A stretch of DNA of 64,000 bases from Holtermannia corniformis (Eukaryota; Basidiomycota; Tremellomycetes; Holtermanniales): the NCBI GenBank assembly GCA_001599935.1, contig BCIJ01000019.1:231296-295295 (forward strand), written 5' to 3'. Shown here piece after piece: positions 24,990 to 42,434 of the stretch; the stretch's first letter is position 1; each line of letters opens with the position of its first letter. The notes beneath the pieces were generated by a model. The model made no database searches, was not told the origin of the DNA, and worked only from the letters and a program-made list of their open reading frames with translations. The position numbers were made by a program, and so were the translations under genes.

Positions 24990-27007
24990 TCACACATCTG
25001 AACACCATCAGAGAGGAGCCTTGTCGGCTCTTTTTGGCCCAGCTCACCACACCAGCCACTGTGGGTACAGCCCATCAACTCTGCTGTAGCGGCGAATGCC
25101 AGCGGGACGCACCCTGAACGAAGGCAGAAGGTTGCCTCTCCTTCCGCTTGATCCGGGCTATCGGCAAGCTTGGCAATGCGCTCTTCGCCACGACCCTTGC
25201 GCAGTTGGATTCGAGTTGCTGAGCTGTCGAAGGCGTCAGTATCTCTGGGTATATACCCTCAGACCAACGCATGTGCAAGGATGTGCCCTGAGACGGATCA
25301 GCGACTTTCATCGGGGTTGCTGGGACTCACCGCCGACCGGCTTCACGGACGCAGCAGCAAACATTGCTGCCGCCTGCAGCCGCCATAAGTCGGTCTTAGT
25401 AATTTCGATATAGGCCACCACGCACCCCTGGATCAGATTGAATCTACGTCGACTCAGCAATCGAACAGGACGCAATGATGCAAGCGGACACGTCAGCGCA
25501 CCTGGTTGGTGAGCACAACGGCAATGTTGAACTCCTCTGCCATTTTCTGAAGCTTGTTAAGGAACTGATTAAGCTTCTGAGCGCTCGAGTCAGCGCGAAC
25601 CGTACGCGACCCGTGAGAGACGAGCACTCACTTGCTGCCTCTCGCTGAGCTCGCCGCGACCGCTATAGTCCTGCCCTGGAAACGTGTCAGACGTGGCCGC
25701 AGCTCCCCGCACCGTCCGCACTGAAGAGGTTCATGATGCTATCAACGATGAGGAGCTTGTACGTGCGATCTTCGATGAAACTGTAACCGGGCATCCTCGA
25801 TTAGCAGCAACAGCCGCCACTGGGACCAACGACGCACCGCTGAGCAAGCTCATTGAGAAACTCGCACTGCTGCTCAGAGTTCCAAGCCCGTCCACACACG
25901 ACATTTTCCGATGCCATCTGGCCATCAACGCCAAAACGGTCTGCGATCGTCTTGAGGCGATCAGGCCGAAAGGTGCCCCTGGCATGGCCGTCAGTCACTG
26001 CGCTCTCACCCCACTGGCATACGTACTCAGTGTCAATCACGGCTACCTTGCCACTTGCACCACCTTGATCCTCTGGCAGCTGCGTCGCAATGCACAACGT
26101 ATGACAAAGCTGAGTCTAAGTCGAATATCAGATCGAGCCACAGGCACGGTCCGCAAACCTTTCCGGTGCGGAACTCTCCAAAGACCTCGGTGATCGACTG
26201 GGTGTTGATACCACCTGACATGTCAGTCAGTACAGAGACCCAAAGCTGTATGGAGAGTGATGACATCCGGGACCAACCTCCGAGCATTTGGTCCACTGCC
26301 TTGGATCCCGTTGTGATCGCGATGACATTTTCCCGACGGATTGAGATCTCAGTTGCTGTTGCGAAGGATGGCGGCTAGGGTCAAACAAATCAGCATATAG
26401 GCACCCCATGCTGTATGGAAACCGACGAGGAGCTTCTGTGCCGTTTCCTGCGTGAATGTCAGCTGATGATCGCAGCAGTCACCGAACAACCGACCTTGAG
26501 CTTCTCTACTTTAGCCTATGCACTTGTCAGTTCTCGATCTGGCGTCAGAGGGAGCTGTACCTCCGAAAGTCCCTGTGAAGCAGCCTCAGCAGGTGGGGTG
26601 CTTACTCGCTGATGGACGTACCTTAATCTTCGCAAGGTTCTTCCTGGTGGTCTGAGCAACGCCCAAAACTGTCACTATCCCTGCAGCCTTGAGCTGCGGA
26701 CAGCTCAGCCTCGACAGTACACGGGGCAGAAGGGTTGCGAACTTTGACGATATCCTGAACGTTGATGCCCTGATCCACGTCAACGTCAGGTCGGTGACTA
26801 CTGGGGGAGGCTAAGTGTCCAGATACGGTACCCACATGAGCTTGAAGTTCATCCACCGACTGAAGAGGAAGTCAGAAATCTCGAAATCACAAGTGACCAT
26901 CACTCACTTCGAAGCTGCACGCTACCTCCTGGGGGCGAGTATCAGTCCACCAAGCCAGGCATCTTCTATTCGAGCAACCTCACCTCGTCGTACTGCTCGG
27001 TTGACAT
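24990..27007 (-). CDS. dmc1: Meiotic recombinase DMC1
   Basis: Twenty-one exons: 26984-27007, 26908-26928, 26836-26859, 26743-26769, 26622-26693, 26561-26572, 26495-26515, 26427-26447, 26278-26374, 26159-26214, 26027-26115, 25838-25978, 25722-25780, 25632-25675, 25502-25576, 25426-25443, 25331-25373, 25269-25287, 25113-25223, 25048-25058 and 24990-24997, giving 330 aa, the usual DMC1 length. The N-terminal helix-hairpin-helix region reads [17 protein letters not shown] and [14 protein letters not shown]. The core has Walker A GEFRTGKT (119-126), [15 protein letters not shown], Walker B LLIVD (211-215), [13 protein letters not shown], loop L2 with an Ala-rich variant, and [28 protein letters not shown] and FRTGKTQL favour DMC1 over RAD51. 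DMC1 forms filaments on resected DNA and pairs homologues in meiosis. The last two exons (the end of the protein) are the least certain. Twenty introns in under 1 kb of coding sequence is extreme. Confidence 0.94.
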
Positions 27008-27164
27008 TCTCACCTGCAAAGCGTACTCTGCGGGATGAATGTGGATGTGACGGTCAGCAAGGTTGTCGAGCACAGACAACCCTGCGCACGGGCCGCGTGA
27101 GCAGGTCACGGTCTTTCGCGCCATAGACATGAATCAGAGGCATACACGCCCGAGCGACTACAAT

Positions 27165-28686
27165 CTACATCACAAACTTGCGACTGCTAGCCTGCTGAGG
27201 CTGGTAGAACCCGCTCAGCCCCGCTTCAACCTCCCTTCCACGCGGAAGAGCCGCTGCTCCGAAACGAGGACTGTTGCCGCTGCTGTTTGACCTAGCATAC
27301 TCGCCGCTGAGGGTACGAGATGCAGAAGTTTGGTGCAGCATGTTGGATTTGAAGCGTTGGGCATGGTTTGGAGCGTCGAAAAATGTCGGTGGGGCGACAT
27401 CGACTGGCTTGTATTGGTACTGAAGGGACGTCAGTGTACGGCCCAGAGTCGTGCTCGCTGTTGCCAACCGCATATGCCTGATGGCTACTCTTGTTCAGCT
27501 CCGGTCGCTGACCCGGATACCCATGAGGCTGCGCTTTGGTGTGTATCTGCTCCTCCACCGCTTCGTGCACTGCATTGGAGGGTGTCAAAGCAAGTTTGCG
27601 CTTGAGCTGCATAATAATAAGCCACTTCACGTCCAAAAGAGTATTGGCTGGACTCACCCGATCACAGATTGCGCGGAGCTTTGACATTTCCTGGTCTTTA
27701 TTGCGGTTCTCCTCGACGAGAGCGGTCTTCTTCTGATTGACGTACGCGAGCTCTTGCTCCAAAGCTACACCACGTCAGCCGAGCGTTCAGTCTCGGTTCC
27801 GCTTGCCTACCGGTGGTTTTGCTGCGTGCGACTGATGCATACTCATGAGTCATAGCCATTGCGCTGCCGACTTGGCTCACGCTGCAGCTCGCCCTCAGCT
27901 ATTTGCAGTCTCAGCGCTTCACATGCAGCTTTCAACGACCCTAACTCACCGGTATCCAGTTGGCGCTGCATACTAGTCAGTCTATCTTGAGCACTCTTGG
28001 TGATGAGCCGCTGAAACGAGCTGGTGAAGGAGTGTGAGCCAGTCCCTTCGATCTGCGATACCCACCTCTCCTGCGCGATTTGATACTGATAGAAGCTGAT
28101 CGCCCTATCGAGACATTAGTCAGACCTTTGTGCAGTGCTCCAGGCAGCTCTAAATACCTAACCGCAACCTCGAGCACGACGCTGGGCGCCAGACCGGACA
28201 GAATTGACTGATTAAGCCTTGTCAGTCTTCTGATGTGCTCGGAGGCTTGAACGCACCGCTTTGTACTCGTTGGACGGGTTCAACGAGCTCAGCTAGCGTT
28301 TATGAGATCAGTGCTGCTTGGTCTCGGCATGTAAGTAGCGTACGACTATGTCATCACTACGAGCGTCAGTCATCCCATCTCCAGAGCACCGGCAGGAAGT
28401 ATCACGCACGGGTCCGACAAAGCCTGGTCGCACGCTGGACAAGCTTGCGAGCTGCCAAAGCTGGTATTGGCGCATGGTACTTTTTCGTGTCACGTATGTG
28501 CATGCTGGGGCTACCTTCCAGCTCACCGCAAAAGATGTCTACAGCGGAGGTCAGGCCGATGAAAATTCTACTTGGGAGCGTCCCAAGCGACGTACGGGAA
28601 CAAGACGTGACGACAGCTTTGCCTTCGAGACCTAGCTGGGCTCGGCACTTGAGGTTGTTGCATCTGAGATCATTCTCGGAAGACAT
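27165..28686 (-). CDS. hei10: HEI10/CCNB1IP1-family RING E3 ligase (meiotic crossover factor)
   Basis: Thirteen exons: 28596-28686, 28527-28538, 28410-28479, 28344-28356, 28257-28292, 28158-28207, 28066-28104, 27950-28020, 27881-27898, 27811-27831, 27658-27764, 27521-27606 and 27165-27477, giving 308 aa. The RING sits at the N-terminus: LRCNNLKCRAQL, CSHIFCVPCANTSF and ACPACDQALSDPDDIV. Next come SLNPSNEYKASILSGL, AISFYQYQIAQE and a coiled coil, the order known for HEI10/CCNB1IP1. The basic, Ser/Arg-rich tail is variable in the family. HEI10 marks future crossover sites along the synaptonemal complex and acts as a ubiquitin or SUMO ligase. The gene starts 108 bp from the SPO11 stop and ends 157 bp before the DMC1 start, all on one strand. 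The acceptor of exon 3 (AAAAAG) and the donor of exon 12 are the least certain junctions. Confidence 0.9.
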
Positions 28687-28794
28687 GTCAAGAAGTGTAC
28701 TTGAAAAGAGTGATGGGTATGGTGGATGTTTGGTGTCTGTGCAAAACGCGGCGTCGCCGGGTGGCAAATGCACGCCGAAACATGTAGTGAACCA

Positions 28795-30893
28795 TCAGTG
28801 CATCATCAGCTTGAACACAATGTAATCGACCAGTTGCCGTCGTCCTGCCCTCAGAGCTCCATCATCTTCGTCAACATCCATCATAAGATCCGAATCCACC
28901 GGGGCTGTCGAATTTGTCAGGATCTGAATCTCGGCCTTGCGCTGAGTGTGTAGCATGATTGAAAGCTCGCGCCTGAATGTAATCAGCCATCGTCGTGTAC
29001 TGAGGAAATCCTACCGCCAATCGTCTGGCAAGCTGGGCTCGTTGCGCAGCATTGACAGACACTGGTTGGCGTGAGCTCATAGAAGGATACACGATGGATT
29101 GCTCACCAGTGTCCAATCTGCCACTGTCAATGGGAGAAGGCGGTCTTTTTCAATGCCGAAGCTACAATGACTTCGATTCAGCTGCGCGTATGCGTCCAAA
29201 CTTCAAACTTACTCGACAAGTTCCGACACTCTCACGCCAATCCACCTCAATCGCTCTTTCAGGCCCAGGCCAGCGTAGTCCTCGGTGTACTTGGTTGCCT
29301 TCGAGCCGTTCGCATAGACCGAGTAGATGCCGAGGCCGTGTGGATCCGCATCCACGAGGGCGTAGAAGGGAAGACTTGGTCGAGATTAGTAGCAGATCGA
29401 AGCACATTGAAGCACGTACTCTTGAAACGTGTCGGCGAGCAGACGCAGCAGTTGCAGCGTAGCCAGATCCGGGTAGCCTTTACCCTGAGCAGCTCAGCAA
29501 TCCCATATTCTCGAACGCCGGTGAGTGACTTACGGTGACAATCACGCCATGCCCGATCCTCTCGTCATCAACTAGCAAAGCTTGGCACAGGTCATTGAAG
29601 ATCGCCTGCGTCTGGGTCAGTGACTGCAACATGTCAAGTCCGCGAGCACTGACGTCCTTTTCGACAATCAACGCCCAATGCAGTTGTTGACTTGAGCTCA
29701 GCGTCCTGATCTTCTCAGCCGGTGGAATCAACGCCGCCTGGCATTGCGTCAATAACCTCGCTGCTGCCATATATCCTATTGGCTAACGGTATCCCCTGTC
29801 AAGACCAGGTCGGTGCCATTCGCTAGCGTGATGGCAAGGCAGCTTGAGGCGATGAGCCCTTTTGATGAGGCGCACTGGCATGATTCAGCGAAACAACCCG
29901 ACGTAATGAAGGCTGCGCACCACGTTGAAGTCGCGTCGACGCAAACCAGCGTCTGCGACGAGGTCATCTACCAGCTTCTCGCCGTCGTTAGCGAGAATAG
30001 CATGCCGGTGTCTGCGACATACTTTGTCCACGACAGTCTGTGTTTTGAAGAGCTCCACGTCGTGGTAGAAGAGATCGCTGAGTCTCGTTAGTCTAAAGAA
30101 AAAGAGACATCACGCATTGCTCACCGTTTTGTAATCGTGACGTTCTCCGTAATGGCCTGAATCAGACACTCGACCACTTTCAGGATGCGTGCTAGCCGCT
30201 AGTCAGTCCTCGGCAATTCCTCGAACATTAACGAACCCAGACGACGTGCGGCTTCGCGCCCAGATGGGTAGGTGACGAGGCTCTTAGCTCTGAGACAACA
30301 TCAGCACCGTACGGCATCCTGGGTCCACAGCGCACCCCGTCTTGCGGTCTTGCAGACTGAGGCTCAGACCCAAATTCTGTTCCGACGGCTTCACCGCGGT
30401 AGGATACGCGGAAGGACCGGCGTTGGCGGCATCCTGGGCGACTAGAGCCTCCATCGACAAGCGCAGCTGATGCACAAGCAGGGTTGGAATGGCGTGAAGG
30501 TAAGTGAGCGCTTTCTCTCTTTCCAGACGAATCAGCGGCGAGACGTGCTTGAGTCAGCATCATCGCTCACCGAGTCGAAGATACCATATCAGCAGCATCT
30601 TCTCTGCTGGTATCGCAGCTGTCCGCTATGTCGAGGTCATCGAGGTCATCCAAGTCTACCCGTTGTTTTGCGGAGTCATCGGCAGTAACGTTTGATTCAG
30701 CACACGGCGATACCACCTGCTCCCCACGTCGCGGCTTTGAGCATGAGCTGCTTGCACCCATATCAGACACGGCCTCATCAAGGAGAAGCTCGACCGAGGT
30801 GAAGCTTGGAGGCATCGCCGCGTATACTTCATCGTCAACATCGTCCATCAGCATGTCGCAGGACGCAGCATCCTCGAGATCGGCTTGTTGCAT
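28795..30893 (-). CDS. spo11: Meiotic double-strand-break endonuclease SPO11 (TopoVIA-like)
   Basis: Fourteen exons: 30571-30893, 30336-30518, 30237-30289, 30125-30191, 30023-30077, 29921-29974, 29788-29874, 29654-29737, 29534-29605, 29420-29484, 29213-29374, 29107-29161, 29015-29037 and 28795-28972, giving 486 aa. An acidic N-terminal extension of about 110 residues precedes the winged-helix domain with ITKRDLFYHDVELFKTQTVV; Tyr213 is the expected DNA-linking tyrosine. The Toprim part has LIPPAEKIR, LIVEKDAIF (Glu300), VTGKGYPDLAT and LVDADPHGLGIYSVY (Asp356/Asp358 for Mg2+). The C-terminus shows WRRELSIMLHTQRKAEIQIL and a final LVDYIVFKLMMH. The usual tyrosine pair is Phe-Tyr here. SPO11 makes the breaks that start meiotic recombination. 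Exon 13 is entered through a GAG acceptor, the weakest junction. The gene is divergent from the MEI4-like candidate at 31119. Confidence 0.95.
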
Positions 30894-30920
30894 GGTCGGT
30901 AGCTTGTATGGTCTAATCGC

Positions 30921-30958
30921 AGCTCAGCAGCTTAATTGTAGCTCAGCAGCGTAATTAT
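30921..30958. repeat. Two imperfect 19-bp tandem repeats in SPO11 divergent promoter
   Basis: The unit agctcagcagcttaattgt at 30921-30939 is repeated at 30940-30958 with three changes. It lies 28-65 bp upstream of the SPO11 ATG and about 160 bp upstream of the opposite gene, so it could be a regulatory site for either. No known meiotic factor motif is evident. Confidence 0.7.
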
Positions 30959-31118
30959 GTTGGCTTTGCAAGTCTGATGCAAGGGTAAACAGACAAAACC
31001 AGTCGCATCAGCACAGATCTGACGACGCATGACCGCGCACGTGATCAGGAGAGACGTCCGTGCTCAGCTTCCCGTTCCCTTGCTCACGTTCAGAGTGTCC
31101 TTAGGTGATCCCAGTAAT

Positions 31119-32365
31119 ATGGGCGGGCAGTCTGACATCAAGGATCGATTGAGGATCGCGATGGTCAGTCCTTTCCGCGCTCAATGCGGCGAGATTTGAA
31201 TTGGGGACCGATCTCTGACCATCTCGTGTTGCAGGCTTTCAGCGTGCTAGCCGGCAAGCCGTCGATGATCCCATTGCAGGGTTAGCATATCATAACAAGG
31301 AGTACTCGAGGTCGACTGACGAGCTGTCGCATCTATCAAGATCATATCGACCAACTACGCACGGACGCTCGCAGCATGGGCCAGACCCACAGCTATCAAG
31401 TGGTCCCCGACGTGCCAGACTCAACTGTCGAATGTGATACAGTACGGCAATGTGTCATATCGCTGCAAAACTATCTACACTCGTCTGTCACGGGTTAGTT
31501 ACAAAGTTCGTGCGGCCGACAACTGAACAAATCCGTAGGTATTGCAGACAAGCACAGAAGTCAACTCATTGCGACCACCAATGTCCTTCTCACGTCTGTC
31601 AACCTCGCGCCACCATCAACAATCGACATTCGTACACTTCTAGCCGATCTGACGCCGTTATGGTGCCCGTCTGCACTGGACGAAACGCCGCTGCATGCGC
31701 ACAGACCGCAGAACGCCGCAAGCCTGCTTTCGTTCGTCGTCGAAGTCGTTGACGCAGTCGCTCAAACGGCGTCTACGTGTGTGTTCTCTTCGTCTCAGCC
31801 ACTCGCGGCGCAGCTTTGTGCTACCAACGTGGTCGACCCTTTGCTCCGCCTCCTCGCCATTGACGCCGTCAACCGCTGCTGTAGCTTCGAGCGACAACCT
31901 GACGACGTATGCTGCGTGATAGGAGAAGAGTCTTCAGTGATGACGACATCACTAGCAAACGCCCTGACCAAGTTGCTCAACTCCTACTGCGGCAATGTCC
32001 ACTGTGACTTTGTTTGCGCCGTAGCTATGACAGTCGAACGATATCTGACAGGGCTCGAGCCGTTGCGAGGCTACACTGTAGCGCGTACAAACTTTGATGC
32101 CGAAGGATGGCTAATTGCATTGCAAGACATCGACTCAATCCTCGTCGCTTGCCTTCACCATCTGATTCTCCCAGCAATGCACCGCCAAGGAGACGAACGT
32201 ATGGACTCACCCTCGGCGCATCAACTACGAACCTCCATGCAACGAAGCTGTGATTTGCTCCTCCACGCCTCAAGCTCTTCGACTACGCACCGCATAGCTG
32301 TGGCATTGGATGTCGCACTCGCCAGTGCCATGGGCACGGCGAATGAGCGGTGCACGACTGTGTAG
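31119..32365 (+). CDS. Helical protein, candidate MEI4/Rec24-like DSB factor
   Basis: Four exons: 31119-31163, 31235-31280, 31341-31493 and 31539-32365, giving 356 aa. The body is predicted helical, with many Leu, Ala, Val and Cys residues spaced like stacked helices; there is no membrane or catalytic motif. The N-terminus reads DIKDRLRIAMAFSVLAGKP and is followed by a basic amphipathic stretch, DHIDQLRTDAR. From memory of the family, MEI4 begins with a helix of the pattern K.A.A.AII..KP followed by a similar amphipathic helix, and MEI4 proteins are all-helical, of comparable length and poorly conserved. The gene shares a 225-bp divergent promoter with SPO11. I therefore propose MEI4 as a hypothesis, not an identification; otherwise it is an unknown protein. 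Confidence 0.5.
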
Positions 32366-32525
32366 GGTGAATGTACGAAGCTGTTTGTAGTCCACCATGC
32401 CACGTAGCTTTCCGAGGTAGCGTGTCTCAGCAGGTAACACGGATATTCACCACCCACCCGAGCTGCAAACACGATTGCTCTCGCCATCAACGACCGGCAT
32501 CGACATCTTGAAGACATCAGCCGAC

Positions 32526-35138
32526 ATGACGACCTTTGATCCCTTCGGCCCATCTTTACTCACAGACGACATCATTATCCCACTTGATCTCGCCAAGGGT
32601 AGCAAGCGCAGCTCACCTGCAGTGTCGGACGCTGGCACGAGTGCGACTGAGCTGATCACAGCGCCGGTCGTTGTTGCAAAGGTGGTCCTTGGAGAATCGA
32701 ATGTTCAGCCAACGGTCTTTACTCATCCGCTGATATCGTGAGTGAATTGCTGACACAGTCCTGCATAGGTGCAAAAGGAAGCGAAGACCAGTCGCCTTAG
32801 CAAGTGGGTTCCAGGAGTCCCGCTACTTGGATCCACCATCAATCGCCCGCTACTCAAGCCCACTGCATCATCTGAACGCGGGATCAGTCACGTTGCATCT
32901 TTCTGGAAGCCGAGCAGTTCATTGACCGATCGCAAACTTGAAGAGGTACGTTATGAGAACGATCGGGATGCTCTGATATTGTGATTGGCAGGTGAAAGCG
33001 AAGCTGAACGCGACAACGCTGTGCATGCGGCAGCTCAAGAAGGAGAATGAGTTGCTCAGCGCCAAGCTCAAGATCTTCGAGTTGAGCTCGGTATGTCCTG
33101 CTGTGGGATCTGCTGAAGGGTTTTTACATTGGATTAAGCTGAGGCCTAATCAGAGCTTGCAAGAGTCACCAGACCCGTCAACGTCTGCTCCAACTTCTGC
33201 GGCTGAGCTCGGACCGCACCTCACGGACGATCTTGAAGTCGCACCCGAGGCGTTCAACCTCAATGACATCGATTATCTGACCCAGTCTCAGGTATGTCCA
33301 TGCTGCAGTATCGACAGCAAGCATGCAACACAGAGCTGATGTGCACAGGATGGCGGTCCTTACGAGCCACCTTTGGAGCTCATCTCTGTCCTGCTGAGTG
33401 GCCGTACTGACTTTGCCGAGCTTCACCCGCGCGACTATCGTGCCGTGGTCTGGACGGTGGCCAATTGCATCCCAAACGGCATGGTGGAGAAGTGAGTAGG
33501 CTGTCCGTTCTGCCTACTGGACAAAACTAAGCGCGCTCGCTCCAGCAACAGCATCAAGTCCGCTGTTAACTACTTGGCGGTACGTGTCAACCATATGATG
33601 TGCTAAGCGTGCTGACGACTTACTCAGAATGAGATGACTTACGGAGAGCGTACGCCGGCTATTGCTCTCATCAACTTCTTCATCAACGAGTTCGGCGTCA
33701 AGCTATGCAAGACTGCGTCCGGCAACTATCTGTGCCAAGTCATGCTGGACACGGCACCTGCAGAAGATTGCAAAGAGTTTGTCCTGACCATCAAGTGAGT
33801 CTTCGACTGCTTAGAAACGTGCCCCGTCATTGATAGCCATGGGACTTGATAGACCCTTCATCATCGAGATCGCCAACCACAGGTTTGGGTGTCATGTGCT
33901 CAACAAAGCGCTGGAAAAGGAAGACCTACAGGTACGGGACATGTCCTTGTCCAATGATGACGGTTGACACCCTGCCAGACGATCGTCATGCAGCAGCTGA
34001 ACTCTGTGGGCATCGCCGAGTCGATGCAGTCTGGAGCTCGTCGCGTCTGGAGAGCGGTATGTGAACGACCAATCGACAGCACCACTCAGAAGCTAATCAG
34101 GGCAATCTAATAGTACATGGAGGTCCGTGAGGCTAGCGCTGAAAGCCAGACTACCTAAGCAATTGTAGATCTGCCGCAAGAACAAGAAGAGTAGCGCATT
34201 CGAGCTGTGAGTCCTTCTCGCTTGGTTTGCTGCATCGCTGATGGATTGTTATAGCATCAACGAGGGTATGGAAGGCCGATGGGTGGGCACCGCTTTGGCC
34301 AACGAGGTTCGCATGGCTGCTCGTTTACCGTGCTTGGCTGACAGCAGATCAGCACGGGAGCATTGCGTGTCAGCAAGTCTTCGAGGTCTACCCCACCCAA
34401 GAGTTGATGGTCAGTGTGACTCACTCCGTTATTGTCAGTCGATGCCGGACTGACGACTTGGACCAGGACCCCTGCTTCGTGGAGGTCTGTGTTTACACCG
34501 AGATGTTGAGCGGCGCACTGATCTGTCGCACAGATCATCGGCAGTATCGACCGCGTTGCCAACTCTGCATTCGGCCAGTAAGTCGGCTTTCGACAATTCC
34601 AATTCGCCGCTTAAGATTCAATAGCTTCCTCATCTCCAAGCTCATCTCGCTTCCAAGCTTCTCTCATCGCACGTTCACAGCCGTCTTGACCTCCCGTCCA
34701 CCGGTCGCGGTGACACAGCACGGAAACAGCTTCGTCAGGGCGAGTCTGAATCGTCGCGGTCGGGACGGCATCGCAGTGTACATCGAAGCCCTGTGTCGCT
34801 ATAAAGAGGGGTGAGTAGCGCAGCGGAGCCTACTTGCCACTCAAGGACTGACTCCGATGCAGAGAGCCGGCGGGACTCATCGACGTCGCGTCTTCGAGCA
34901 GCGGGCCGGCTCATCTGAGTAAGTAGATTCAGCCGACGTCGTACAGATCACTAACCTTGTAATCACCACGTAGATGTACTGCTCAACATGGTTTGTGGCA
35001 GACATCAAGGTGACTTTGACTCAATTCGTTCCGCAGGCGTCACCAGCAGAGAAAGCCACGATCCGCAATACTTGCAAGGCCTTCTCGACGACACTGCGCA
35101 TGTCACAAAACGGCAACGACTTCCTTCGTCTCCTGTGA
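32526..35138 (+). CDS. Pumilio-family (PUF) RNA-binding protein
   Basis: Nineteen exons: 32526-32737, 32792-32945, 32992-33090, 33154-33291, 33349-33491, 33546-33579, 33628-33794, 33853-33931, 33979-34056, 34114-34122, 34169-34206, 34255-34306, 34353-34409, 34467-34484, 34534-34577, 34625-34810, 34863-34918, 34974-34990 and 35037-35138, giving 560 aa. The N-terminal ~200 residues are disordered, with a short coiled coil (LKKENELLSAKLKIF). The C-terminal ~330 residues carry divergent PUF repeats, visible as SGNYLCQVMLDTA, NHRFGCHVLNKALEKED, EHGSIACQQVFE, SAFGQFLISKLI and QHGNSFVRASL. PUF proteins bind 3' UTR elements and usually repress or localise mRNAs. Five clear repeats is fewer than the classical eight; others may be too diverged to see. 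Exon 10 is only 9 nt. Which PUF subfamily it belongs to is unclear. Confidence 0.8.
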
Positions 35139-35333
35139 GAGATTGTTCTCATATGCATCCCCAACGACTGACGGACTCTATCAGCGGTCTTGTAACAGCA
35201 CCTGGCGTCGGAAAGCGCACCATTCGTCGCCTGTAATGTCACCCATCCTTGTTTGAAACTCATTTGTGTATTATCGTCGTTGTACAGTCATGTCATATAG
35301 CCACCACTACAGAAACTCAGATACTCAAACCGA

Positions 35334-36443
35334 CTATTCTGTCATGCTCTCCATGCTTTGATCCAGCCTGCGCTTGCGCCTACCAGGCAACTGACTTGAC
35401 CCTGCACCTCGCTGTGGGATCCTCGAGCCAGTATCCCACCTTGGACCACTGTCAGCCCACTGACACATGGAGGGATTTCCATTTTGCTGTGTTTGAGTTT
35501 CAGGTATCGGCAGTCGCAGGTCTGCAGCGCGCACATAACGCTTGCGAGCCTTGTGAATCGGTGCGAGGGGCTCGGATGTGTCTTCCATTACGCTCTCAGC
35601 GTCTTGCAGCAACTTGCGCTTCTTGCGTATCGGCTGCGCGGGTGGCGCCATGGGTGTGGGTGGGGCAATCGCTTCGATCACCAGTTGATCAACCTGCGTT
35701 TGCGTTTCCTTCTCGGCCAACGAGCTGTGTGCGAGTGCGGTGGGCTCTGCATCCGACACAGCGGTACTGGAGGTTGACAGAGACAGTGTGTGTGCGGAAA
35801 AGCCTCGAGCGTGCGGCTGTGCAGGCTTGGGACCTGTGATCGGTTGCACGGACGCCTTCGCAAGCTACCATTAAACATGAGCTGCGCGTCTGGTATAGGA
35901 AGAGAGCAGCGCTTACGTTGACTTGACGTTCAATTTGATCCAAAGAAGCGCTGAGCGTGTGTTCGACCTTGGCGACGCCTTCCTGGATGATTGTCTTGAC
36001 GCACTCCTCTAGGCGTTCTTGCCGTGCTTGGAGTACCGAATCAACTGGGGATGATGTGTCAGAGCGCGATACGCTATACCCTAAGACTACTGACGCAGGT
36101 CGCCTATATCTTCTTCGAGCTCTCCGCGGGTCGGGAGAGCTTTCTGTTGCTCTCTCAGGCTGTTGATTGCCGTCCAAACCCCTGTCAACTCGGTCTGCAC
36201 GGTTTTGAGCTCGGTTGTGATGCCTGCACTGTAGTCAGTGGGTGAACACTAATTGGAACATTCGGACTCGCTCCGCAAAGACTCAACGACCTCCCCTTCC
36301 TGCTCTGGCGCGCGTCTCGGCCGTGCCAAAGGTGCGGCAGTGCCGCCCAAAGTGATTTGAGGGAGTGGGATCTTCTGGAGAAAGTGGTATAGAGGGTGAT
36401 TGGGATCTTGCTGGGGCGGCAGTCTACTCGCAGGGTTCTTCAT
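35334..36443 (-). CDS. Short central-coiled-coil protein, unknown (Mer2/IHO1-like layout)
   Basis: Four exons: 36260-36443, 36095-36223, 35917-36044 and 35334-35864, giving 323 aa. A disordered Pro-rich N-terminus (about 60 residues) is followed by a coiled coil of about 90 residues (ITTELKTVQTELTGVWTAIN, then ARQERLEECVKTIIQEG and SASLDQIERQVN). The rest is disordered, with basic clusters (RKKRKLL, RKRY, GRRKRRL). The first intron is only 36 nt. I do not recognise the family. A short coiled coil between disordered regions with basic patches is the layout of Mer2/IHO1/Rec15 proteins, and its neighbours are meiotic, but layout alone is weak evidence. It converges with the PUF gene (195 bp between stops) and diverges from the DUF3669-like gene. 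Confidence 0.65.
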
Positions 36444-36607: not shown

Positions 36608-39190
36608 ATGGAGGCTCACTCGAGGTCTCTGACTAAGCCTATGGCTGCAGAACAAGCTCCACGTCCACACCGTGGCCGCGGGATCTCAACGGCGCTCTCC
36701 GATTTCACGTTCAGCTCGCCGTCTCAGTACCCTCTCGCCGCGTTTCAGTCTGACGACTATCCGGCCTCAGTCGGAGGTGATTCCCCACTCGTTGATGCGC
36801 TCAACAAATTTGTGCGTGATTATCACCTGCAGCACCCACGCTGACGCTGGTCAACGCACAGGCCCGTAATCTCACCCTCGTCGGCGAAGGCTCGTACGCC
36901 GCGATCTGGCTCGATTCTGATGGCTCGACGGTCTACAAGCAGCCGCACAAGGTCGTATCAACCCGCATCGAAGACGACTCGAGTGAACCCTCGAGCATCG
37001 GCGATTCGTGCTACGATGCGTTAATGCAAGAGCTGTCTACAATGTTTCGACTCCGGCATCATACCCTGACGGATTGCCTGGTTCAAGTGCCGACAACCAA
37101 GGGGGTTCTCTCAAGCAACGCCTCACTCGAAGCAATGTACCTCAGTCCATCGTCGACCGCGTCGGACCATCCGACATGGGATCACTCTCAGCCAAGTTTG
37201 AGCATGAGTTTCATTCAGCCAGTCAGTCAAGCTGTCTCGGACGCTTACCTTCAGCTGTGGTCTCCTCCGGCCATTTTGGGCGATGCGGCACGAACAATCC
37301 GTCACATCCACCTGTTCCTGGCTCACGACGTCAGCGATTACGAGCTACCGCAGCACTACGTGACCCCAATATGCTACATGGAGCTGTGCAATCAAATCGA
37401 CCGCGCTACCAAATCGCGTACGCGTCATCATACGCTCCAAGACCTTGCAAATGAAGTGGGCTACTTGTATGGGATGATGCACTGGGCGATGTGCGTCGAT
37501 GGCGTGGGTGTTGATATCGTCATGGCGGCTGGTGTTGTCAAGGATACGGATATGGCTTGGCATTCTGTACCGGCATGCTTCGGGTTCAGCAACGTACGTC
37601 TGTGTCATCGTCCTCGTGATTCTGCTAAGAGGGATGCAGGTCTCAGTATGGTTGCCCGACGGCATCGAGCCAGATGACTTCCTCGCGTGGCTCGGCACTG
37701 ACCCAGCTCCGGGTGCTCTCGACGCGTCACTGGAAGCACTCGCTAATCAATCTTTCGCGTCGCCGCATATTCCCCGCGGTAATTCGTCGCTCTTTCATTA
37801 TTTCTCGCTGGGCTATCAACGTGCCATCAATACCATTATTGTGCGAGAAGACCTCGAAGGCGGCGTCGTAACCCGCCTTTGCAGCCTTGTTTACGGCTGG
37901 TTATGCCGTCTCTTGACTCTACAGGCACGTGAGTGGGAGCAGATGCAGACGGGCGAGCCAGCAGACACTGTCGAACCGGACACTAAGCCGTGCCGCAAGG
38001 TGAATAAGCAGGTGCGCTCCAGTCTGATGTTGCTTGCATGCCCAGGCACTGTGCTAACATTGGCAGAATCGGACGACGTTGCAAGAGATCTGCAGCACTT
38101 CGACGGCGCAGCTGTTTCTGCACCAAAGTCAATCCATCGTCTACAAGACCGTCAAGGATGCTGCAGATCACAACATGATTGCTCACGAATTCATGTACCT
38201 CAACGAATTGCGCGACCTATTGCCCGCCGATCGAGTCCTCGTCATTTGCCAGCGCGCACCCGTCCTCTACGCACCCGAACACTCGAGTATCACCATGATC
38301 AAGACTGGGGCAAGACCGCCACTTCGATCGCAGCTGGACACACCCACCAGTGCGAAGCGTACTCGTGGCTCGCTCGGCATACTCGCAAGATTTGACCACG
38401 CCGCCCTCGGTATTGACAGAATCCGTCCCTTGCCCGAAGCGATCAGGATGCGCTACAAGGACTATTTTGTCACTGCAAGCTACGCGGAATGCATGTCAAG
38501 CAAGGAACCCGCCCTAGTTCATCTTCAACTCGGCTCGACGCCCCAGCGCTATCACCCGCCGTCGCGCGACGCTCCGCACTACATTACTATCGACCAGTAT
38601 CAACTGCTGTTTGACGGATTGAAGGCCGACAAGCGTGACTTCGGATACGTGATGACGCGCGAGCAGCTAGCGAACGCAGTCGGCTATGCTCTCGGTAGCA
38701 TGCACTGGGCGATGGGCATCGATGCATACGACGCGAAGATCGTACTCGGTGAAGGGACTTGGAGCGCTCTCCTTCGGAAGGGAATCGCCTTGCAGCCTTA
38801 TGTGATCAGTCTCGACAAGGTCTGTACCAGGCGCTTGCATCAATGGAAGATTCTGATGACCTACAGGCTAGGCCATGGCTCACCAACATCCCGACCGAGT
38901 GGCCGCTACTTCTCGCCTTGCCAAAGGAAGACTACGACGCGATCGAGTTTGATCCATGCATGTCCCGGCTGGCCAACGTCATCCACGCCTCCAAGACATA
39001 CCCGCCCATGAGTTCCTTGTGGTACGAGCCATTCAAGTCTGGCTACCGCAACGCCATGATCCAGTTCATCAGGGAGGACGTCCTGCCAATCGCCGGAGTG
39101 CCTGGGGCTCACAGAGCAACGGACCTGTTCGATATGGTCTTTCGAAAGCTTCAAGAGCTCGAAGCTACCAGTTTGGAAAACGAGGAGTGA
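36608..39190 (+). CDS. Tandem DUF3669-like protein (two copies in one chain)
   Basis: Five exons: 36608-36811, 36862-37593, 37640-38011, 38067-38819 and 38867-39190, giving 794 aa. After a disordered N-terminus, two homologous halves follow. The first has VGEGSYAAIWLDSDGSTVYK, FIQPVSQAVSDAYLQLW, HYVTPICYMELCNQ, ANEVGYLYGMMHWAMCVDG and WLPDGIEPDDF. The second has AQLFLHQSQSIVYK, DRIRPLPEAIRMRY, HYITIDQYQLLFDG, ANAVGYALGSMHWAMGIDA and WLTNIPTEW. The HW..(K/G/V)D pattern is typical of DUF3669 proteins of fungi. The first strand region, with G-x-G and V-x-K, looks like a kinase N-lobe, but I see no catalytic HRD/DFG. Both halves have an intron at the same place (37594-37639 and 38820-38866), so an internal duplication is likely. 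Function unknown. Confidence 0.75.
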
Positions 39191-39467: not shown

Positions 39468-42434
39468 TCACTGCTCCTGCTTGTCAGCGTCCTCGACGAC
39501 ATCCGCCTCTTCCCCGACGGCATCCGCTTCTTCTTCCGCCTTGGACCCCTTGAACCCCTGATCCTCTCCCTTCTCAGTCAGAGCCGTCTGGTGCCAGCCG
39601 CTCGTCTCGGTGCGAGTCACTTCGCGCAGCGCCATGGTCGCGTATGCCGACGTCCCGAGCGTGAGACCAATCTGGAGCGCCCAGAACTTGCCGTCTGGTT
39701 CCGACTCGGCCGCGGGGTTGATCCCGAGCAGCTTGTCCTCGTCCGATTGGATCAAGTTGATGTCGGGATCGGTGTAACGAAAGTGTTTCCACGTGAGGTG
39801 GGATGGCAGGTGGATGATCTTGCGGTAAGATCCGGCAAGCGAGTATTCCCTGCACCCGTCAGCGTTTACTACGTCGATCGATTGGTGACTCACCTTTGAT
39901 CACGGCGCATCTGGGTCGGGTCAAGCCCATCGGCCTTCATGACCTCGTCGATAATCTCGGCTGTGCGGCCTTGCGGGTAGTCGATGTCATGGCCCGGTAG
40001 GGGGATGATGACGTCGAAGATGGTGTGCTTGCCCTCGGTGACGTCTTGATCGGTGAGGACCTTGACTTTGGCTGAGCGTGGAGCTTTCCACGACTTCTTC
40101 CCGTGGCGGCTGGGCGCTGAACATTGTGAGCCTGCAGACCAAAGTGATTAGCGGACCAGCAACCCACCTGATTCACTTTCATCCCCGGCAACCTCTGTTT
40201 CGGCCTGATACACCAGATCTCCGGCAATCGGCTGCTCGGCCGACAGCTTGATCCGCTCCGAGACGACGGCATTCCACACATAGCTCTGATAAGCATGCAC
40301 GTACATGGTCCGGAGCGCGCGCGGGATCTACCACACCATCAGTGACCACGCCAGTGCACTGCTTCGCGCCACTCACCGTGCCCAAAGCCCCAACGCGGTC
40401 GTTCGCGTCCCTGCCCGACGCCCAGAACTCGAGGAGCGCGCGCTCGGCAACGCTCCGGCGCGGCATGACTTCAAGAGCCTTTTTCGCATCCTTTTCGCGC
40501 GACCAGATCAAGCGCGCGCGCGTGCAGTCTGGGTGTTCGCCCTGGCGGACTGACATGATGAGATCAATGGCGTCTTGCCAGCGCGATTGCAAGAGGGCGA
40601 GGCCGATGGTGTGCGTGGCGACGGAAGACGTGCCGAAGCGCTGCATGCCTGTGGTTCGTTAGAGACGCGTCGCCTGCAATGGTCAAATATCAGACACACC
40701 GTAATAGTTGACAAACCCATGATCGCGCAGAGACTCGAGCGCGGTATCAACCACTTGCTGACTCTCAGCCTTGACACTCCTACAGCTTGATCAGCATCGC
40801 CCACCCTCTGAAACGCCTCACGACTGACCTGAGCGTGATCACAAAGTGATTCCCCTTCAACATGCCCAACTCGAGATACTGCTTCGAGTACTCCAGATCG
40901 CCAATCCGGATCCCACGCTCGCCCTTCTCCCTGACGGCGACCTTGTCCGTGCGCCAACCCTGCGTGATCCCATTGACCGATTTCCAAACTTGGCCCATGG
41001 TCAGTCTCCCGCGCTTGAGGGAGATGCGCTGGACGGTGACGCCGCGCTTGTCTTTGGTCCCGGCGAACGAGAGGTCTTTGCCGGGCACGCGGAGGAGCCG
41101 AGCAATGTGCTGCAACGCGTCTTGGGTGTCTCGGTTGGATTTCTGCAGTGTGAATTGGATATAAGGTGGGTGCTGGGTTGGTTTCGGACCTGAATGGGTC
41201 AGTCGTGCTGCATGGGTTGAGAACAAGGGACCTACCGGCAGGTTTGCCATCCTTTTTATCGCCAAAGCGCCGCGTCGCGCCCGTGGACCACTTGATCACG
41301 ATCCGACTCCCTTGGTCGCCAACGACATCGCGCGCTTCCGACTCAAACTTGCCGCCAAAAGTCTCGCGGATCGTCTTGTGAAACGCTCCGCGCTCTTCCT
41401 TGGTCGGGATAATCTATTGCGATCAATCAGCACAATGAACAAGCATGGATATGTGGACGGACCTCGGACACAACCTCACGGTGATCGACCGGACGGTCTT
41501 CACCGCCGGCAAAACGACCACCCCGACCGCGGGCACCACCTCTGCCACGACCTCGATCCCTGCCTTGACCTCTGCCCCTGCCTCTGCCTCTGTCGGTACC
41601 GCTCTCGGCTGCGCCAGTTGGTACAACGAGACCCAAGCTGCTCATCTCCTGCTCTTCTTCCGTCATCTGCACGCCGGTCCTCGCAGCTCTCGAGCCCCAG
41701 CCAGCGTCCGAGACTCGAGGCGGCGTCGGTCCTTCGAGCAAAAGGTTGCGAAGTGCGACAATGGCGTCGGTAGGAAGGTAGGGCTGTGCGTGCAGTGCGA
41801 GGGTGTATGAGACGGGCCATTGTGGGTTGACTGGTAATTGCAGTTCATCGGGTAACGAGGATGTGTCGGGTTCGGTGGATGCAGAAGCTTCTACAGCTGG
41901 AGGAGCAGCCTCTTCTGCCTTGTCCTCTTGCTTGTCCTCCGACTTGTCCTCTGGCTTGACTTCGGGCGCCGCCTCTTTGCTGTCTGGCGTGTCTGGACGT
42001 TCTTGCACGGGCTCCTTTGGCTTGGCAATGTTCTTCAAGTAGAGAATCTCACCGTCCATTGTGACTTCGTTGACAAGAAAGTCTGAGAACCTGCCATTCA
42101 CCAAATCAGCACCATGTCCGCTGGAACCGGCTGCGCCCACGGACCGCTGCTTGATGATACCCTCAACTTTGGCTTGACTGTTGCCGATATACGCTCTGAT
42201 GCCGACATCCCGCTCCGTCATCTGAAAGACATTCTTGCTCGAGCCATCCGTGGCGTGCTGATCATTGTACAAGGTCGTCGACGCCGGCAGCTGCATCGGT
42301 TCAAACACGACGTCGTCCATGGGTGGCGTTGCGATGCGTTGCCGCTTAGTATCGATGGTGACTGAGCTGCCTGGCGATGGCGGCTCTTTGCGCACTGTCG
42401 TCGAGCCCACGGCCGTGTCTGGAGTGAGCTGCAT
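39468..42434 (-). CDS. pus7: tRNA/mRNA pseudouridine synthase PUS7 (TruD family)
   Basis: Nine exons: 42145-42434, 41463-42090, 41236-41413, 40829-41189, 40700-40779, 40377-40648, 40168-40327, 39894-40116 and 39468-39849, giving 857 aa. TruD-family blocks are in order: RFSDFLVNEV, IIPTKEERGAFHKTI, the catalytic motif SFAGTKDKRGVTVQRISL (Asp of KDKR is the nucleophile), LGMLKGNHFVITLR, YGMQRFGTSSVATH and MYVHAYQSYVWN. Two inserts are present: an acidic, Lys/Glu/Pro-rich stretch (around 150-200) and an RGRGRGRG-type run near 320-345. PUS7 converts U to pseudouridine in tRNA, snRNA and mRNA (UNUAR contexts). Length is greater than yeast Pus7 because of these inserts. It is divergent from PRP6. 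Confidence 0.96.

Follow-up and report, generated by a model that had tools for sequence, protein, structure and literature searches.

Why should three core genes of meiotic recombination stand in a row in one fungal genome? Genes for initiating, repairing and marking meiotic breaks are usually dispersed, which makes such clustering unusual. The case arises in the window, the 64,000-nucleotide stretch of Holtermannia corniformis DNA analysed here, in which DMC1, HEI10 and SPO11 had been annotated as neighbours. We favour, with a probability of roughly 0.5, the reading that the row is a derived grouping of core genes of meiotic recombination, one of three such neighbourhoods in the genome, kept for the sake of common promoters or domains.

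Splice models of DMC1, HEI10 and SPO11 were built by hand, every intron being GT-AG. The complete gene models agree with the initial annotation: the three genes are consecutive on one strand, with coding gaps of 157 bp (DMC1–HEI10) and 108 bp (HEI10–SPO11). The agreement of a gene finder with these models is not independent, because the finder was trained on the hand models of the window. An ABC-transporter gene adjoins DMC1, and the gene finder fuses both into one prediction. The features are collected in Table 1.

Table 1. Features of the meiotic row and of the genes beside it (positions are those of the window).
Feature	Position	Strand	Description
DMC1	24990..27007	minus	21 exons, 330 aa; Walker A residue 119, Walker B residue 211, C-terminus SGGWCDV
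HEI10	27165..28686	minus	13 exons, 306 aa; RING ligands C9 C14 C29 H31 C34 C37 C48 C51
HEI10–SPO11 gap	28687..28794		108 bp, SPO11 stop to HEI10 start; one PACE-like word inside
SPO11	28795..30893	minus	13 exons, 515 aa; candidate catalytic Tyr218 in RDLFY, Toprim Glu305, DAD from residue 377
SPO11/divergent-gene common upstream region	30894..31118		225 bp; PACE-like word absent
MEI4 candidate	31119..32365	plus	4 exons, 356 aa; head-to-head with SPO11
PUF-repeat (Pumilio-type) protein	32526..35236	plus	Gene prediction; PF00806 9.2e-7; gene-finder start 32371
Gene of Mer2-like layout	35334..36443	minus	4 exons, 322 aa

Judged by their sequences, the three identities are firm. The DMC1 protein matches Pfam Rad51 at 1.2e-109 and has all the features of its class: a RecA/Rad51 core, Walker A and B motifs, an N-terminal helix-hairpin-helix and a closer match to DMC1 than to RAD51 (top solved chains in PDB, DMC1 at 4e-118; best RAD51 chain, 2.9e-103). 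It is at most 80% identical to tremellomycete DMC1 proteins, and a distinct RAD51-like locus lies on contig C9. For HEI10, the best PDB chain is CCNB1IP1 (HEI10), matched over residues 4-180 (1.6e-29; next RNF4, 1e-6). Its N-terminal C3HC4 RING (Pfam, 3e-8) has 8/8 ligands in place and is followed by a coiled coil, recognised by eye and from the extent of the match. SPO11 shows a Toprim domain (1.4e-28) with Glu and DxD and a TP6A_N domain (2e-19) with a candidate catalytic Tyr; the corresponding residues are Tyr218, Glu305 and DAD377. PF21180 was found in 34/34 SPO11 relatives, and its single locus in this genome is SPO11.

Beyond SPO11, the initial annotation had placed a MEI4-like gene with a common upstream region and, further on, a coiled-coil gene of Mer2-like layout. 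The distance and divergence of the first pair stand, and the long exon of the MEI4 candidate reads as coding (best of six frames, no stop). No MEI4 match was found for it in Pfam, in a protein database search or in PDB, and a six-frame genome search with PF13971 (MEI4 family) was empty, its controls being silent too. Its last exon alone (274 aa), modelled with AlphaFold2, is helical at low confidence (mean pLDDT 38.6). An N-terminal motif ending in KP may resemble that of MEI4. ORF length was rejected as an argument for the candidate (longest stop-free run 288 codons, versus a mean of 241 and a maximum of 438 in 50 shuffled windows). We use the MEI4 label as a lead only. The gene at 36443..35334 likewise reads as coding in the frame test, and its coiled coil was judged by eye; its assignment to Mer2 found no family match near the Pfam cut-off and no meaningful match in PDB. 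A PUF-repeat gene sits between the two.

The distance between the ATG of SPO11 and that at 31119 is 225 bp. The median intergenic gap is 243.5 bp (31 predicted genes in 84 kb, with approximate gene calls). The spacing of the row is ordinary for the genome; the unusual part is which genes neighbour each other.

Two further meiotic neighbourhoods were found in the same genome. On contig C5, SWI5/SAE3 (PF07061, 2.2e-22) lies beside HOP1, and HOP1 and MSH4 are head-to-head with 64 bp between their ATGs, a second such pair after SPO11 and the MEI4 candidate. HOP1 has a HORMA domain (8.7e-53; HORMAD1 in PDB, 1.1e-12) and a PHD finger (PHD_5, 6.3e-5; PHD, 2.1e-4; each just under the Pfam cut-offs), the two features of its class. 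The MutS protein beside it carries domains II, III and V but lacks domain I. Neither MSH4 nor MSH5 was among its 37 PDB matches at E ≤1e-10, and it is tentatively read as MSH4 rather than MSH5. On contig C43, MLH3, an ORF and MND1 (1.5e-24) stand in tandem, MLH3 having HATPase and MutL_C domains and CAHGRPALVPL near its end. SWI5 and MLH3 are also active outside meiosis. MSH5 and REC8 are isolated from other meiotic genes, as judged from their neighbours by eye. An uncharacterised gene is head-to-head with MSH5.

Family searches of the genome for HOP2, MEI5 and REC114 gave no match. Such empty results are no proof of absence, because the searches were made exon by exon and the controls were silent (PF13971, PF10376, PF03525) or never reached the cut-off (PF07106). 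A Sec63-domain search did not find MER3; its three places were read by eye as BRR2 (C1), SLH1/ASCC3 (C39) and SEC63 (C16).

A comparison covering SPO11 and DMC1 was then made with other basidiomycetes. The two genes are on separate contigs, according to locus tags and the lengths of the contigs, in 6/6 comparable assemblies and non-adjacent in a seventh, so the description of these genes as normally dispersed holds for this pair, and the expectation that their order might be conserved across basidiomycetes fails (linkage in 0/7 other assemblies). Conservation by selection is unsupported because the SPO11–DMC1 neighbourhood is absent from these seven assemblies; the row is therefore either derived here or lost there. 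Loss would mean an old cluster of an early tremellomycete lineage that disappeared in Tremellales and Trichosporonales. The DMC1 tree agrees with this, setting the genome outside Tremellales plus Trichosporonales (98/92) and leaving its fork with Filobasidiales open, and the linkage-checked tremellomycete assemblies all belong to Tremellales or Trichosporonales. However, Phenoliferia, a more distant basidiomycete, likewise lacks the linkage, and no Filobasidiales SPO11 was present among the 34 SPO11 relatives compared. We regard such an old cluster as unlikely.

An accident of drift in a compact, rearranged genome, with no effect of the neighbourhood on expression, would account for the absence of the SPO11–DMC1 neighbourhood elsewhere, for the ordinary size of the gaps and for the unclustered MSH5 and REC8. 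Its probability was approached by placement of 18 loci in the 20.2-Mb genome, taken from the seven family searches with matches (7 meiotic genes and 11 others; SWI5, MLH3 and HEI10, met as neighbours, were left out). Only two pairs lie within 10 kb of each other, SPO11–DMC1 and HOP1–MSH4, both meiotic, and none involves the 11 other loci. A single cluster among seven meiotic genes has a P of ∼0.012, and the SPO11–DMC1 row was the starting observation, chosen for looking clustered. At least two clusters, however, arise under random placement of the seven with P values that range, as the allowed distance is varied between 4 and 20 kb, from 1.5e-5 to 4.1e-4 (2.5e-5 and 4.3e-5 in two runs at 6 kb). 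Taking the first pair as given, further pairs among the other located genes were expected 0.007 to 0.035 times and one was found, which is striking but a single event, and MLH3 and MND1 form a third neighbourhood. The earlier suggestion of non-random clustering is strengthened by these results, and accident, like the old cluster, seems to us a doubtful explanation.

Could a promoter element link the genes? A PACE-like word, CGGGTGGCAAA, lies at 28758-28768 (+), 74 bp before the HEI10 ATG, and one is found 74 bp before SWI5 too. In a first count, GGTGGCAA occurred in 5/9 meiotic regions versus 0/61 controls (Fisher 1.0e-5; 1851 words tried), the meiotic regions being 151 to 421 bp long and partly over predicted first exons and the controls 150-200 bp. 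When every gene was given the same 200 bp upstream of its first ATG, the figures were 4/11 genes versus 0/61 (3.2e-4), which fails correction for the words tried. The SPO11/MEI4-candidate, DMC1 and MND1 regions lack the word, which is not common to the whole row. Genome-wide, CGGGTGGCAAM has 101 occurrences versus 16 for the reversed control, and 13 of 14 sampled stretches contained a match, near recognisable genes that by eye resemble AAR2, protein-isoaspartate methyltransferase, PMP3, photolyase, SF3B3 and an ISWI-type ATPase. The word belongs to the genome at large rather than to meiosis specifically, and as promoter evidence it is weak. In budding yeast, PACE-like sites govern DNA-repair genes, one of them at -72 of RAD52, according to the part of PMC7672625 used here. 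The likeness to that Rpn4/PACE regulon lies in the word itself, GGTGGCAAA, and in its position (74 bp before HEI10 and SWI5 here, -72 of RAD52 there; same part of PMC7672625); the difference is that none of the 14 sampled stretches showed a recognisable proteasome gene.

Read-through from the SPO11 promoter, giving SPO11, HEI10 and DMC1 as one unit, fits their common strand and short gaps and the tandem MLH3, ORF and MND1, but appears improbable, as a PACE-like word of its own precedes HEI10, gaps of that size are nothing unusual between adjacent genes in this genome, and HOP1–MSH4 and SPO11–MEI4 candidate are divergent and therefore give no joint transcripts.

In the derived neighbourhood that we favour, rearrangements in a compact genome would have brought meiotic genes together. 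The row would then cover three steps: SPO11, perhaps together with MEI4, for break formation, DMC1 for strand exchange and HEI10 for crossover designation. Placements may have been kept because neighbours can use a common promoter, as SPO11 and the MEI4 candidate or HOP1 and MSH4 might, or alternatively lie in a common domain that opens during meiosis. Transcripts would be separate for each gene, an operon being unnecessary. Co-expression would be under selection, and regulation would be common.

A wider proposal can be made tentatively: that the meiotic recombination machinery of this lineage is collecting in a few chromosomal islands, selected for timed meiotic expression via common promoters. 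If so, the first island would serve to form breaks, exchange strands and mark crossovers; the second, with HOP1, MSH4 and SWI5/SAE3, would hold axis, crossover and recombinase-accessory genes, and the third would pair MND1 with MLH3, a subunit of the crossover nuclease. This would also make new meiotic genes of three loci: the MEI4 candidate, the ORF flanked by MLH3 and MND1, and the gene head-to-head with MSH5. Genes inside islands are candidates for the fast-evolving break-formation proteins MEI4, MER2 and REC114, which sequence searches did not find here (controls of the MEI4 and REC114 family searches were silent). Core eukaryotic genes do not commonly form functional clusters, and the cause of those that exist is disputed; a clustered lineage, set beside relatives with SPO11 and DMC1 apart, provides a natural test of whether gene order is driven by co-expression.

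Among known systems, fungal metabolic gene clusters also group the genes of one pathway in one lineage and have them scattered or absent in relatives. The likeness, a one-lineage grouping, is with accessory metabolism, whereas core eukaryotic genes are concerned here. Conserved divergent neighbours in fungi tend toward related function, RAD16–RAD7 being a tabulated example, and resemble the present pairs as functionally related head-to-head genes at short distance with promoter elements thought to be common (consulted part of PMC2871058). By contrast, the present case consists of rows of meiotic recombination genes with a SPO11–DMC1 neighbourhood absent in seven other assemblies, and no meiotic pair is named in that part of PMC2871058. 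The Cryptococcus meiotic toolkit, from fungi of the same class, comprises the same genes, with no meiotic gene clustering reported in the sections of PMC9296135 drawn on here. According to the same sections, DMC1, MND1, HOP2 and REC8 rise on sporulation in C. depauperatus, which is without MSH4 and MSH5, whereas the genome described here appears to have both (PMC9296135).

The window (C19:231296-295295 of the 20,211,851-base, 55-contig genome) carries SPO11, HEI10 and DMC1 in a tandem row on its minus strand, and the identities proposed for them in the initial annotation were borne out by Pfam, solved-chain and protein matches. DMC1 matched Pfam Rad51 at 1.2e-109 and solved DMC1 chains at 4e-118, versus 2.9e-103 for the top RAD51 chain; the Rad51 family search of the genome returned three loci, the window DMC1, a RAD51-like gene on contig C9 and another on C10. 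Residues 4-180 of HEI10 matched solved CCNB1IP1 (1.6e-29), the next-ranked chain being RNF4 (1e-6). Both Spo11/Top6A domains (Pfam) and the expected active-site residues are present in SPO11, which matched 34 proteins at E up to 0.001 and is the single SPO11 locus found in a whole-genome family search.

The window genes were modelled by hand-made splicing. The five models are complete genes. Their GT-AG introns are short, in most cases 40-70 bp, and a CTNAY branch-like word is present in 41 of the 50. The last exons of DMC1 were set by comparison with tremellomycete DMC1 proteins; the model ends in SGGWCDV, and most tremellomycete DMC1 proteins end in or near SGGWED. The spacing described earlier was reproduced, with coding gaps of 157 bp (DMC1-HEI10) and 108 bp (HEI10-SPO11), and 225 bp between the SPO11 ATG and the start of the divergent gene at 31119. 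This shared region contains, immediately upstream of the SPO11 start (30920-30960), an imperfect tandem repeat in which AGCTCAGCAGC precedes TTAATTG or GTAATTA.

Genes of the window and of the other meiotic neighbourhoods
Gene	Location	Strand	Features
DMC1	window 27007..24990	minus	21 exons
HEI10	window 28686..27165	minus	
SPO11	window 30893..28795	minus	
MEI4 candidate	window 31119-32365	plus	head-to-head with SPO11
PUF-repeat gene	window, between MEI4 candidate and Mer2-like gene		
Mer2-like gene	window 36443..35334	minus	
Predicted 775-aa protein	window 36608-39190	plus	halves alike by eye (MMHWAM, SMHWAM); no Pfam match
TruD-type tRNA pseudouridine synthase	window 39468-42434	minus	PF01142 3.5e-76; ordinary neighbour
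Predicted gene	C5:579170-581211	minus	by eye like family X DNA polymerase
Sizeable predicted gene	C5:581835-583893		the one between the preceding gene and SWI5
SWI5/SAE3	C5:584071-584537		tail-to-tail with HOP1; PF07061 2.2e-22
HOP1	C5 from 587870, modelled to about 585,230		HORMA 8.7e-53, PHD finger
MSH4	C5		MutS protein read as MSH4; head-to-head with HOP1, 64 bp between ATGs; MutS domains II, III, V, without domain I
MLH3	C43 from 26467 to about 24270	minus	HATPase, MutL_C; CAHGRPALVPL near end
ORF without assigned function	C43 about 24240-23100	minus	between MLH3 and MND1
MND1	C43 23084..22213	minus	1.5e-24
Predicted 259-residue gene	C24:148025-149167	minus	head-to-head with MSH5; no Pfam match; coiled-coil-like by eye

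The divergent gene had been called MEI4-like. Its long exon scores as coding, but nothing matched it in Pfam, the protein database or PDB, so MEI4 is here a lead, drawn from position and from an apparent likeness to an N-terminal MEI4 motif. The Mer2-like identity is a lead no better supported.

In a tree of 28 DMC1 proteins, with rows presumptively assigned to orders, the genome lies among Tremellomycetes; the group without Cystofilobasidiales is supported at 98/97, the genome and Filobasidiales form an open fork, and 18 Tremellales and Trichosporonales rows exclude the genome (98/92). A tree of 16 SPO11 proteins likewise places it among tremellomycetes (100/100), leaving the order open.

Two further meiotic neighbourhoods were found, SWI5/HOP1/MSH4 on C5 and MLH3/ORF/MND1 on C43, the latter in series on one strand. 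From its sequence, the C5 MutS protein is read as MSH4; its start may be a later ATG, and the gap to HOP1 would then be about 180 bp. HOP1 probably extends to about 584,609, by an ORF. SWI5 came from inspecting neighbours and was excluded from the placement test below, and MLH3 from inspecting those of MND1. No meiotic neighbour was recognised in 10 kb around MSH5 (C24) or 9 kb around REC8 (C21), both read mostly by eye. The gene head-to-head with MSH5 is a candidate new meiotic gene.

Neighbouring genes in this genome are commonly 100-250 bp apart (median 243.5 bp among 31 predicted genes in 84 kb); which genes adjoin, rather than gap size, is what counts. The whole genome was searched with eleven families, four without hits and seven yielding 18 loci, named within families by eye: seven meiotic (SPO11, DMC1, HOP1, MSH4, MSH5, MND1, REC8) and eleven non-meiotic (RAD51-like, Rad51 paralogue, MSH1-like, MSH2, MSH3, MSH6, MAD2-like HORMA gene, RAD21, BRR2, SLH1/ASCC3, SEC63). 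Closer than 10 kb to each other are SPO11 and DMC1, and HOP1 and MSH4, with no further pair among the 18 loci. Under random placement of the seven genes, two or more clusters arise with P 1.5e-5 (4 kb), 4.3e-5 (6 kb, a threshold initially picked with the loci already known; 2.5e-5 in a separate run), 1.3e-4 (10 kb) and 4.1e-4 (20 kb). Because SPO11-DMC1 was selected for looking clustered, the fairer figure is the 0.007 to 0.035 further pairs expected by chance among the remaining genes. The arrangement is thus unusual, as had been observed, by this test and by the other neighbourhoods; accident is a possible origin.

The promoter word GGTGGCAA occurs in five of nine meiotic upstream regions (HEI10, HOP1/MSH4, SWI5, MLH3, MSH5; unequal in length, up to 421 bp) versus 0/61 regions from other gene predictions (Fisher 1.0e-5, out of 1851 words examined); in MSH5 and MSH4 it falls within the predicted gene start. 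At MSH5, a PACE-like word lies where the predicted starts of this gene and its divergent neighbour overlap. With an equal 200 bp before the first ATG, the enrichment is suggestive only: 4/11 (HEI10, HOP1, SWI5, MLH3) versus 0/61 (p 3.2e-4), and 5/11 versus 3/61 for GTGGCAA (p 1.5e-3). The word corresponds to GGTGGCAAA, the yeast Rpn4 PACE element. This element also serves DNA-repair genes, with one site at -72 of RAD52 (PMC7672625). The PACE-like CGGGTGGCAAM is over-represented in this basidiomycete genome (101 copies versus 16 for a reversed control). Given this excess, the unrelated genes that sampled copies precede or lie inside, and the absence of GGTGGCAA from the SPO11/MEI4-candidate, DMC1 and MND1 upstream regions, it is a general element rather than a row-specific one; several meiotic genes may use it, and it is no proof that the row is regulated as a unit.

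Conservation of the row's order, raised in the initial annotation, failed for SPO11-DMC1: the two lie on different contigs in all six comparable assemblies, from five species (Kwoniella newhampshirensis, Tremella mesenterica, Cutaneotrichosporon sp. HIS471, C. cavernicola HIS002 and HIS019, Phenoliferia psychrophenolica), taking an identical species name as an identical assembly and Cutaneotrichosporon chromosome numbers from tags. In K. shandongensis, a seventh assembly, they are not adjacent either, their protein accessions differing by 251 numbers. Kwoniella heveanensis and Rhizoctonia solani, with differing or unclear strains, were left out; DMC1 relatives were the best 120 of 3066 proteins, and additional species may carry both genes. 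The comparison covers the SPO11-DMC1 pair, in Tremellales, Trichosporonales and the more distant basidiomycete Phenoliferia.

Among the matches listed, no title or abstract opening described meiotic recombination genes as lying clustered on chromosomes. The row is best read as a derived neighbourhood, one of three in the genome, and shared meiotic expression would perhaps explain why its placement was kept. In Coprinopsis, SPO11 belongs to expression cluster 3 and DMC1, HOP1 and MSH5 to cluster 5 (PMC2944786), which counsels caution against assuming identical timing of meiotic genes.
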